Assembly: GCA_021778515.1 (NCBI GenBank) | Contig: JAJYCJ010000010.1 | Coordinates: 1-55,593, forward strand | Origin: Acidobacteriota bacterium | GTDB taxonomy: Bacteria; Acidobacteriota; UBA4820; DSQY01 | Reading direction: 5' to 3' | Length of the DNA stretch: 55,593 bases | Part shown: piece by piece, positions 2,471 to 51,233 of the stretch | Position numbering within the stretch: position 1 is the stretch's first letter | Layout of the letters: every line of letters starts with the position of its first letter | Notes under the pieces: model-generated | Database searches by the model: none | What the model saw: the letters and a program-made list of their open reading frames with translations, nothing else | Told to the model about the DNA's origin: nothing | Program-made: the position numbers and the translations under genes

Positions 2471-2776
2471 GTGATCTTGCACCTGCGCGACCCGCGGGAG
2501 AAGAGCTGGGGCCTGCTCCTCAGGATGGACCCCACGGGCGTCTGGGTGCGGGGGATCGACCTGGCCTCCGTGGAGGACTGGGCCCGCCAGGTGGCCGCCG
2601 GCGCGGGCGAAACCATGGGGCTGGCCACCTTCTTCGTTCCCTACGCGAGGCTGGAGAAGATCGTGCTGGATGAGCCGCTGGGCCCCGTTCCGTCGCTGGC
2701 CCAGCGCTTCGAACAGATCACCGGCGTGGCCCTCCTGGCACACCTTGATCCCAAATCCCGCGATTGGACGCAGTAG
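2471..2776 (+). CDS. Conserved-looking hypothetical protein (~101 aa)
   Basis: GTG start in the open frame after mce; coherent composition 'VILHLRDPREKSWGLLLRMDPTGVWVRGIDLASVEDWARQV...'; last codons and stop lie within repeat-B copy 1. Confidence 0.6.
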   Translation: MILHLRDPREKSWGLLLRMDPTGVWVRGIDLASVEDWARQVAAGAGETMGLATFFVPYARLEKIVLDEPLGPVPSLAQRFEQITGVALLAHLDPKSRDWTQ

Positions 2777-3075
2777 TGGCGCCGGAAAGCAGAATGAAAG
2801 TGGTTTTCATGAAAGACGGTTTTCGCCCGCCAAGGGATTTGGGTTGCCTCCGACCCCGGACTTGATCCGGGGGAGGAAGCCCCAAGGGTGGGGTGGGGCC
2901 CCGACGGGCTTTGCCCGTGGGGCGGGGCCCAGGAGGGCAATACGACGATTCGACAGGCTTGGCCTGCGATTCGGAGAAGGAAGCCCTTGGCCCTCCCCGT
3001 CCAAGAGACAACGCCTTTCCACCGTGTACACGAGACCCGGCCGAAGTCACCCGCATTTCAATCGCAGAACTTGGG
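2750..3075. repeat. Repeat family B, copy 1 (326 bp, terminal inverted repeats)
   Basis: Left end CCCAAATCCCGCGATTG (2750-2766), right end CAATCGCAGAACTTGGG (3059-3075); colinear with copies at 17741 and 50908. Confidence 0.9.
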
Positions 3076-6171: not shown

Positions 6172-6188
6172 CAATCGCGGGATTTGGG
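6172..6188. repeat. Solo right-end of repeat family B
   Basis: CAATCGCGGGATTTGGG, identical to right TIR of copy 3 (51217-51233), with no body or left end nearby. Confidence 0.7.
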
Positions 6189-15445: not shown

Positions 15446-16051
15446 GCCTGCACCGAACCAATCGACAGCAGACAAATGGAGATAGCGCTGCCACGCTGCA
15501 CCGCCTTGCCGGACCCCGCCTGGACGGGATGGCGGTTGGCTGGGCATGTTGGTCATCTGAGAGGAGGTGGAGCGATGGCCCATGGTGAGCGTCTGGCTGG
15601 CTGCGTAGGCAGGCGAAGCGGGAGACCGGGCAGGCGGGGGAGCTTGAAGCGTAGGAGCTCAGCGTGAGGTAGCCGCAACTCTTCCTGGGGGGCGGCGCCC
15701 TGGTGGAGAATGTGGCGGTGAGTCCGCCGGCGTTCTCGTTGGAAGACGTCAAGCCGCCTAGGCGGTGGGCATCACGCTGTCCATGCCCGTGCCACTCGGC
15801 TCAATCCCGTGAGAACATGGGGCAACGCACCAGAGGCGCCCAAGAGCGCGGGAGAGGCTGCCGAAAAGGCCGCGAAGGCGGGGCGTACTCCTGCCGAATC
15901 GCCCCGAAGTCCTGAAATCCGCTCCGAAGCCTTGCAGCGCCGCTCCCGACTGGCCCACGGGCGCCCGCCGGTCCAGAGTGTTTGCAGGGCACGAGCGCGG
16001 CCGTTGACGGGCCCGCCCTCCGGCTCGTACGCTCAGGAGCACGGAGGCGGC

Positions 16052-17770
16052 ATGGAGCGCGAGCGGATCGTGGGGGCCCTGGAGGCGCTGGCGGCGCTCT
16101 CCGAGCTGCTGGGGGAGAACCCGTTCAAGGCGCGGGCCTACGCCAACGCGGCCAGGACTCTCTCCAAGGCCTCGCGGCCGGTGGAGAGCTGGGGCGAGCC
16201 CGGCGTGCTGGAGGCCCTGCCCGGCGTGGGGAAGGCCATCGCCGAGAAGGTGCGCGAGCAGATCGCCACGGGCTCCGTGCACAAGCTGGAGGAGCTGCGG
16301 GCCAAGGTGCCGCCGGGCGTTAGGGAGCTCGTGGGGGTGCCGGGCCTCGGCCCGAAGAAGGCGGGGGTGCTCTGGCGCCAGCTCGGGCTCCAGTCGGCGG
16401 GCGAACTGGAGTACGCCTGCCTCGAGAACCGCCTCGTCTCCCTGCCGGGCTTCGGGCCCAAGACCCAGGCCAAGGTGCTGGAGGGGGTGCGTCTTCTCGC
16501 GGGCCGCCGGGGCAAGCTGCTCCTCCCCTCAGCGCTGGCGGCCCAGGCCGCCCTGGCCGCTCGGGTGGAGAGGGCCGCACGCGGCGCGCGCTGGCTCTTC
16601 GCGGGGGAGGCGGCGCGCCTCTGCCCCGTGGTGTCGGGCCTGGAGGTCGTTTTGGAAGCCGGCCGGGCGGAGGAGGCCGCGGCGGCCATGGGTCTCTCTC
16701 GGGCGGCGCCGGGCCTGTTTGTGGGGGAGAGCCCCGAGGGCGCGCCCCTGCGCCTCCGGGCCGCGGCCGCCGAGGGCCTGGGGTCGGCGGCGGTGTGGTT
16801 CGCCTCCGGGGAGCCCTTCCGCGAGGCCCTGCGCGCCGAGCTGGCCCGCAGCGGCCTGGCCTGGACGGAGGAGGGCCTTCTGCGGGAGGGCCGGGCCGTC
16901 CCCGCGCCCTCGGAGGAGGCCTTCTGGCGGGCGGCCGCGCGCTCGCCCATACCTCCCGAATGCCGGGAGTTGCCGGAGGCGCTGGAGGCGGACCTGTCGG
17001 AGGTCGTCGCCGAGGGCGATCTCCGGGGCGCCTTCCACGTGCACACCGACTGGAGTGACGGCGGCGCCACGCTGGAGGAGATGGTGGCCGCGGCGGAGGC
17101 GCTGGGCTGGGAGTACCTGGGCCTCTGCGACCACTCCGCCAGCGCCGTCTATGCCCACGGACTCGACCCGGAGAGGTTGGTGGCCCAGCGGGCGGCCATC
17201 GCCGACACGCAGGCGCGCCACCCCGGCATCGCCCTCTTCGCGGGCGTGGAGTCGGACATCCTGGGCGGGGGCGAGCTGGACTACTCCGATGAGCTGTTGG
17301 CCGCGCTGGACCTGGTGGTGGCCTCGGTGCACGGCCGCTTCGGCCTGGACGAGGAGGCCCAGACGACGCGCCTCGTGCGGGCCGTCTCCCATCCCGCCAC
17401 GACCATGCTCGGCCACCCGACGGGCAGGCTGCTCCTCTCCCGGGAGCCCTACGCTTACCGCTGGGAGGAGGTCGAGGAGGCACTGGTGTCCGCCGGCGCG
17501 GCCGTGGAGCTGAACGCCAACCCGCACCGGCTGGACGTGGACTGGACGCGCCTGCCCTCGCTGCGCCGGCGGGGCGTCCGTGTGGCGGTGAACCCGGACG
17601 CCCACTCGGTGGCGGGGCTGGCGGACGTCCGGTACGGGATCTGGGCGGCGCGCAAGGGGCTGGCGCGGCGCGGGGACATTCTGAACACGCTGGATCGAGA
17701 GGCCGTCGGGGCGTGGCTTCGGTCGAAAAAGGCGCGCCGACCCCAATCCCGCGATGGAGGAGGGGAATAG
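16052..17770 (+). CDS. polX: PolX-family protein (HhH + degenerate pol-beta-like domain + PHP)
   Basis: HhH 'VPGLGPKKAGVLWRQLG', 'LPGFGPKTQAKVLEGVR'; PHP motifs 'FHVHTDWSDG', 'CDHSASA', 'GVESDI', 'SVHGRF', 'GHPTGR', 'NPDAHS'; GGAGGC SD before ATG 16052. Confidence 0.85.
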   Translation: MERERIVGALEALAALSELLGENPFKARAYANAARTLSKASRPVESWGEPGVLEALPGVGKAIAEKVREQIATGSVHKLEELRAKVPPGVRELVGVPGLGPKKAGVLWRQLGLQSAGELEYACLENRLVSLPGFGPKTQAKVLEGVRLLAGRRGKLLLPSALAAQAALAARVERAARGARWLFAGEAARLCPVVSGLEVVLEAGRAEEAAAAMGLSRAAPGLFVGESPEGAPLRLRAAAAEGLGSAAVWFASGEPFREALRAELARSGLAWTEEGLLREGRAVPAPSEEAFWRAAARSPIPPECRELPEALEADLSEVVAEGDLRGAFHVHTDWSDGGATLEEMVAAAEALGWEYLGLCDHSASAVYAHGLDPERLVAQRAAIADTQARHPGIALFAGVESDILGGGELDYSDELLAALDLVVASVHGRFGLDEEAQTTRLVRAVSHPATTMLGHPTGRLLLSREPYAYRWEEVEEALVSAGAAVELNANPHRLDVDWTRLPSLRRRGVRVAVNPDAHSVAGLADVRYGIWAARKGLARRGDILNTLDREAVGAWLRSKKARRPQSRDGGGE

Positions 17771-18065
17771 CCGTGGAAGGCGCGACAGATCACGCACAGT
17801 GGAAAAGGGTGTCACACCCACTGAGGGATTGGGGGCCATCGACCCCGGACTGGATCCGGGGGAAGAGGGCATCAAGGGAGAGGTGGGGCCCCATCGGGCT
17901 TTGCCCGTGGGGCGGGGCCCCGCAGGGCAATCTCCCGAACCGCCGGGCTTAGCTCGCGGTTCGGGGGGGCAAGGCCATGGCCCTCCCCGTCCAGGGGACA
18001 ACGCCTCTCTGCCGTGAACCCGAGCGGTAGCCGGAGGCACCCGCGTTTCCATCGCGGAATTTGGG
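17741..18065. repeat. Repeat family B, copy 2 (325 bp)
   Basis: Left end CCCCAATCCCGCGATGG, right end CCATCGCGGAATTTGGG; colinear with copies 1 and 3. Confidence 0.88.
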
Positions 18066-31255: not shown

Positions 31256-31272
31256 GCTTTTTCCGCAGCCAT

Positions 31273-31431
31273 CCAAGGTGCCCCGACCGGGGTGAAAAGG
31301 GAAGGCCGTGAAATTCGGCCGCGGCCCCGCCACTGTGAGCGGCGACGAAAGCGGCGATGAGCCACTGCCTCGGCAAGAGAGGTGGGAAGGCGCCGTCGGT
31401 AGGATGACCCGCAAGCCAGGAGACCTGCCTG
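31273..31431 (+). promoter_or_regulatory. Cobalamin riboswitch
   Basis: Conserved string set: 'ggtgccccg', 'ggtgaaaagggaa', 'gtgaaattcggccgcggccccgccactgtga', 'gccactgcc', 'gggaaggcg', 'gatgacccgcaagccaggagacctgcc' (B12 box). Confidence 0.95.
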
Positions 31432-31512
31432 AGGATGCCCGATTGGGTGGCCCCTCGTGGGAGGGGAACCGAACCGTGCGCCCCCGGAAGCCCCGGTTCA
31501 TCGGAGGTTTTC

Positions 31513-49747: not shown

Positions 49748-49901
49748 GGGGGGAGAGGAGAAGGGGATGTCCACAGAGGCACAGAGGCACGGAGGCCAGA
49801 AGAATGGGGATTGGGGATTTGGAAAGACGCCGGGGGGCAAGGAGCGAAACTCGGTGGGTGGGCCTTCTTCCGAGGGGAAAAAGCCGTGCGATCAGGCCGG
49901 G

Positions 49902-50111
49902 GCGCCATGTCCTCCCGGGAGTAAGGTGCACAGACGCTCCCGCGCGCCATGTTCCCCCGGGAGTAAGGTGCACAAGTCGTCCGGCGCACCCTGTTCCCCC
50001 GGGAGTAAGGCGCACAAGTCGTCCGGCGCACCCTGTTCCCCCGGGAGTAAGGTGCACAAGTCCTCCCGCGCACCATGTTCCCGTGGGAGTAAGCCGAGCG
50101 GTCGCGATGGC
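49902..50111. repeat. 42-bp tandem array, 5 units
   Basis: Unit starts at 49902, 49944, 49986, 50028, 50070; consensus gcgccatgttcccccgggagtaaggtgcacaagtcgtccggc. Confidence 0.93.
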
Positions 50112-50907: not shown

Positions 50908-51233
50908 CCCAAATCCCGCGATTGGACATTGGAGCGGCTCCGAAAGGCTCATGGATGGTAGTTTCCGTGGAAGGCGATCTTCACCCGCCAAGGGATTTGG
51001 GTTGCCTCCGACCCCGGACTTGATCCGAGGGAGGAAGCCCCGAGGGTGGGGTGGGGCCCCAGCGGGCTTTGCCCGTGGGGCGGGGCCCCGGAGGGCAACG
51101 CGACGATTCGTCAGGCTTGGCCTGCGAATCGGAGAGAGAAGCCCTTGGCCCTCCCCGTCCAAGAGACAATGTCTCCCCCCCGTGAACCTTAACCATAGCC
51201 GAAGCCACCCGCATTTCAATCGCGGGATTTGGG
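50908..51233. repeat. Repeat family B, copy 3 (326 bp, perfect 17-bp TIRs)
   Basis: CCCAAATCCCGCGATTG ... CAATCGCGGGATTTGGG. Confidence 0.92.

Follow-up and report, generated by a model that had tools for sequence, protein, structure and literature searches.

Repeat B of an acidobacterial genome: an apparently new family of IS1380-type MITEs in which one terminal repeat is matched to two partners

Repeat B, which is present in three copies in the window (a stretch of 55,593 nucleotides from an Acidobacteriota bacterium, contig 165 of a draft genome of 3.34 Mb in 176 contigs), appears to be a new family of IS1380-type MITEs. What looked like an RNA switch thus becomes a family of mobile elements that occurs in eight or more genomes within a single acidobacterial family and is tied to an IS1380 transposase. 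The element has an unusual and testable property: The two halves of a single terminal inverted repeat (TIR) are matched to two different partners. The best explanation overall, to which we assign a probability of roughly 0.72, is a MITE that is moved by an IS1380-family transposase and that carries a local stem-loop at its left end.

Repeat B as a short mobile element

Repeat B is almost certainly a MITE, i.e., a short non-autonomous transposable element, of ~326 bp, as judged from its TIRs, the duplications that flank it (TSDs), and an empty orthologous site. The ends carry 17-bp TIRs, which are perfect in copy 3 (CCCAAATCCCGCGATTG ... CAATCGCGGGATTTGGG). Across the 3.34-Mb genome, 231 such ends (115 + 116) were found at up to three mismatches, versus 4 (3 + 1) for a reversed control, and pairing of the ends yielded elements that were mostly 255 to 340 bp long with short flanking duplications. 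About 64 copies within this size range, too short to hold a transposase, were extracted from the source genome. Exact duplications of 4 to 7 bp flanked 46 of 63 copies (5 bp in 33, 4 bp in 9, 6 bp in 3, and 7 bp in 1), compared to ~1 expected from shuffled flank pairs. In a genome of the same genus (G001), the site of copy 1 was found to be empty, with an uninterrupted gene end. The copies in the window and their parts are as follows:

2750..3075, + strand: MITE copy 1, 326 bp; TSD TTGAT on both sides; empty orthologous site in G001
2750..2766, + strand: left TIR of copy 1, CCCAAATCCCGCGATTG; complementary to the box at positions 1-10 and to the right end at 11-17
2834..2843, + strand: internal box of copy 1, GGGATTTGGG; partial copy of the TIR, the third in the element, oriented like the right end
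3059..3075, + strand: right TIR of copy 1, CAATCGCAGAACTTGGG; 3 mismatches to the left TIR of copy 1
17741..18065, + strand: MITE copy 2, 325 bp, C:G subfamily; TSD GCCGA on both sides
17741..17757, + strand: left TIR of copy 2, CCCCAATCCCGCGATGG
17825..17834, + strand: internal box of copy 2, GGGATTGGGG; co-varies with the left arm
18049..18065, + strand: right TIR of copy 2, CCATCGCGGAATTTGGG; position 4 does not follow the left arm
50908..51233, + strand: MITE copy 3, 326 bp; perfect 17-bp TIRs; 4-bp flanking repeat AAAG
50908..50924, + strand: left TIR of copy 3, CCCAAATCCCGCGATTG
50992..51001, + strand: internal box of copy 3, GGGATTTGGG
51217..51233, + strand: right TIR of copy 3, CAATCGCGGGATTTGGG

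Two open reading frames of the window, at 2015-2776 and 15809-17770, terminate inside the element (2750-2776 and 17741-17770, respectively) and take their final codons and stop from it; at the copy 1 site of G001, the gene closes with sequence of its own. One perfect TIR end (CAATCGCGGGATTTGGG) lies alone at 6172-6188, where the sequence on its interior side is not that of the MITE and no partner end was found. Many contigs of the source genome (G000) begin or end 100 to 220 bp within a MITE copy, and the element family thus fragments the assembly.

An IS1380-family partner

One TIR end of the source genome, the right end of an IS1380-family transposon at G000:C36:528-544, did not border MITE interior and instead follows an open reading frame that has a match to NF033539, a model of IS1380 transposases, at its C terminus (E = 1.8e-7). 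L183, the closest transposase relative, comes from an Acidobacteria MAG (WY3.bin59; contig JAKAJA010000025.1, 11,886 bp), where we observed a complete IS1380 element of 1,604 bp that is bounded by CCCGCCTTCCGCGATTG and CAATCGCGGGATTTGGG, with CTATT flanking both outer sides, and whose transposase matches NF033539 at E = 8e-92 and PF13701 at E = 1.1e-38. A scan of genome contigs with the transposase fragment returned two loci only. In the source genome itself, no intact IS1380 copy was found, only a C-terminal piece truncated at a contig end and a decayed remnant. A PDB sequence search with the IS1380 transposase gave no match.

Like IS1380 (NCBIfam NF033539, Pfam PF13701), the MITE has the 17-bp end CAATCGCGGGATTTGGG, duplications of ~5 bp, and an asymmetry between its ends as in the L183 insertion sequence. 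Unlike IS1380, it contains an internal box and several hairpins and has no transposase gene, and it is for this last reason a derivative of IS1380 and not a member of the IS1380 insertion sequences. Beyond the ends, we found no homology between the interiors of the two. They share only their ends, and we therefore treat mobilisation of the MITE in trans by an IS1380-family transposase as an inference. The element also resembles Correia elements, the Tn3-derived TIMEs, and the IS1182-derived MITEPye1 in being short, multicopy, and strongly foldable, in having TIRs and TSDs, and in lying mostly beside or between genes, but it belongs with a different transposase family and has a third, partial TIR copy whose selective pairing partner is the outer part of the left end. 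Foldable transcripts are a well-known trait of bacterial MITEs (PMC4133298, PMC11578231). In the accessible portions of the open-licence literature on IS1380 with MITEs, and on MITEs in Acidobacteria, neither this element nor an IS1380-derived bacterial MITE was found to be described.

Matches of the left arm to the box and to the right end

The first-pass annotation had described the left arm of repeat B as complementary to an internal box, and this was borne out: CCCAAATCCC at 2750-2759 is complementary to the box GGGATTTGGG in copy 1, and the same pair recurs in copy 3 (50908-50917 with 50992-51001). The box of copy 1 does exist, although at 2834-2843, one base away from the 2833-2842 first given for it. 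In copy 2, the two sides have indeed changed together, with CCCCAATCCC at 17741-17750 facing GGGATTGGGG at 17825-17834. Matches at up to one mismatch numbered 18 in the window, versus 5.2 expected, and no shuffle reached 18.

We then quantified the matches in an alignment of 82 complete MITE copies from the source genome and from other genomes of the same family. Conservation is among the highest in three blocks, at positions 1-17, 85-94 (the box), and 310-326, each of which stands out from its flanks; the box is 95 to 100% conserved at nearly all positions across the genera of the family, compared to 45 to 90% in most of the preceding 60 nt. Drift of the box away from the left arm, which would have spoken against the proposed pairing, was rare: Left positions 1-10 were Watson-Crick complementary to the box in 95.8% of the scored cells (785 of 819), and the pair between left position 4 and box position 91 (L4/B91) was concordant in 78 of 82 copies (A:T in 54 and C:G in 24, with 4 others). 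The same ten positions matched the right end at 83.3%, with a C.A mismatch at 8/319 in 72 copies and a C.T mismatch at 4/323 in 23, and right-end position 323 remained T in most copies while L4/B91 changed. Left positions 11-17 displayed the opposite preference, matching the right end at 94.7% and the sequence before the box at only 33%, as the box is without the inner TIR half GCGATTG. The left arm is thus partitioned, positions 1-10 going with the box and 11-17 with the right end, and covariation was seen in both matches. Several copies, among them copy 3, also match the right end perfectly over the outer ten positions of the left arm, since left and right ends are both transposon TIRs.

Compensatory changes with both partners, as had been proposed, were observed, but independent events are few. 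On a tree of the interior sequence with weak to modest support, only ~2-3 coupled changes of L4/B91 were counted. A second compensated pair was observed in one copy (G006 L312), where CACCAATCCC goes with GGGATTGGTG (CACC.../...GGTG), giving two covarying pairs in the box helix overall. A sequence-only model of the left module found further copies in eight genomes of the family, almost all of which retain CCCCAATCCC with GGGATTGGGG. The distance from left end to box varied (52, 82-86, and 100 nt), with the complementarity still perfect. The pairing was broken in some copies (C37, C26, C151, L276, L270, and L265), in the last three without compensation. The box of older subfamilies is longer, reaching further into a TIR-like sequence (CCATCAAGGGATTGGGG). 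Two MITEs with the same ends and exact TSDs have no box at all (L181:2347-2494, 148 bp; L218:1501-1637, 137 bp), and the box is therefore not essential for movement. Taken with these exceptions, the near pairing between left end and box is a real and conserved feature of the left end of the MITE.

The constant mismatch at 8/319 looks like an inherited identity of the two ends, because the ends of the L183 insertion sequence differ likewise (left ...TTCC, right ...TCCC). We had also considered a structural origin of this mismatch, a reading that was replaced by inherited end asymmetry as found in L183, which is a single IS copy.

Explanations for the internal box

In the explanation that we favor, an IS1380-family transposase would recognise the 17-bp ends and move the MITE in trans, leaving duplications of ~5 bp. 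Between left positions 11-17 and the right end, the pairing is simply the inverted-repeat symmetry of the transposon, the inner TIR half being matched at both ends for recognition by a single transposase. The box is a conserved but partial copy of that end sequence and has stayed complementary to the ten outermost nucleotides of the left end; the leading explanation is that in single-stranded nucleic acid these two stretches fold on each other into a local left-end stem-loop. Their complementarity might be kept by selection, by template-switch copying between the hairpin arms, or by both. Direct pairing between left end and box is the simplest account, because the inner half of the TIR is missing from the box and the changes are not mirrored in the right end. 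That such a stem-loop explains the box is nevertheless a tentative proposal, to which we give slightly less than even odds. As to the function of the stem-loop, we can only guess that it might, for instance, shield the end from read-through transcripts or shape mRNA 3' ends. It seems rather improbable that it is a dedicated left-end structure of an IS1380-type element, built from a duplicated piece of TIR, with pairing between tip and box controlling the exposure of the end or the fate of the transcript; one TIR would then have two jobs, with its inner half serving protein recognition and its outer half nucleic-acid folding.

The strongest competing explanation, which we consider unlikely, sees in the box a binding site of the transposase that is subterminal and asymmetric, comparable to those at piggyBac ends; the same protein domain would bind the left end and the box, without any pairing between them. 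PiggyBac requires asymmetric ends with internal repeats (PMC7351741), and the literature treats it as a relative of IS1380, which has served as its outgroup (PMC10813416); like the MITE, it has a subterminal repeat structure and two non-equivalent ends. The 19-bp repeat of piggyBac, however, is a palindrome bound by a cysteine-rich domain, whereas the box of the MITE complements the tip of the end from 85 nt inside. In favor of a binding site, the box is conserved as strongly as the TIRs, no strand bias was seen in the helices, and the MITE shares the asymmetry of its ends with the L183 insertion sequence, whose right end (CCCAAATCCC) resembles the left end of the MITE and whose left end (...TTCC) resembles the right one. 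Against it, GCGATTG is missing from the box, position 4 has changed jointly in the left end and the box and not in the right end, the spacing is variable, and copies without a box have been mobile. Moreover, in G007, apparently the genome of L183, the MITE reads CCCC and the insertion sequence CCCA, such that position 4 is not matched to the transposase. The narrower idea that the box is a transposase site equal to the ends was weakened by the absence of the inner TIR half. Repeat B offers a clean system for asking whether subterminal repeats of MITEs act as folding elements or as protein sites.

Less probable again is that the box is a functionless remnant, left by an older and shorter element or by a nested insertion, with its complementarity persisting only through the descent of subfamilies from a few master copies and through template-switch correction of hairpin arms. 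The TIR-like extension of the box in older subfamilies, the small number of independent coupled events, and the occurrence of copies without a box would all fit such a relic. But the box has stayed nearly invariant across the genera of the family next to a much more variable upstream stretch, and the decay of its extension has left exactly 10 nt in place, both of which argue against it.

Last, the first-pass annotation had read the two pairings as a pseudoknot or a two-state RNA, whose left arm would pair now in the box helix and now in the far helix, and this reading we regard as very improbable: The far match is the TIR of a transposon, as the TSDs, the empty site, and the shared ends of an IS1380 element show, and therefore requires no RNA pairing. 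In support of an RNA switch, the left arm is divided between two matches that are both conserved, the fold of the MITE is more stable than that of shuffled sequences (z ~ -6 on either strand), and the interior hairpins covary, with 12 pairs changed on both sides among 25 divergent copies versus 4-5 when slid on the + strand. Both strands of the MITE fold about equally well, however, and signs of an RNA sense strand were absent, with 9 G.U versus 10 A.C in the left/box helix and 15 G.U versus 28 A.C among strand-neutral pairs, where no bias to the + strand was seen. Genes read into the left and the right end at similar numbers (28 versus 26, using a crude codon-usage gene caller), with no orientation bias, and no constant neighboring gene was observed beside the element. 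Because the internal hairpins covary, it is probable that the element folds in one single-stranded form or another and that this folding either matters or is imposed on it. In a comparison with Rfam, the element had no match; the only match in the window was a cobalamin riboswitch elsewhere, at 31259-31446 (RF00174, 121.7 bits). The window also contains, at 49897-50106, a 42-bp unit in five tandem copies.
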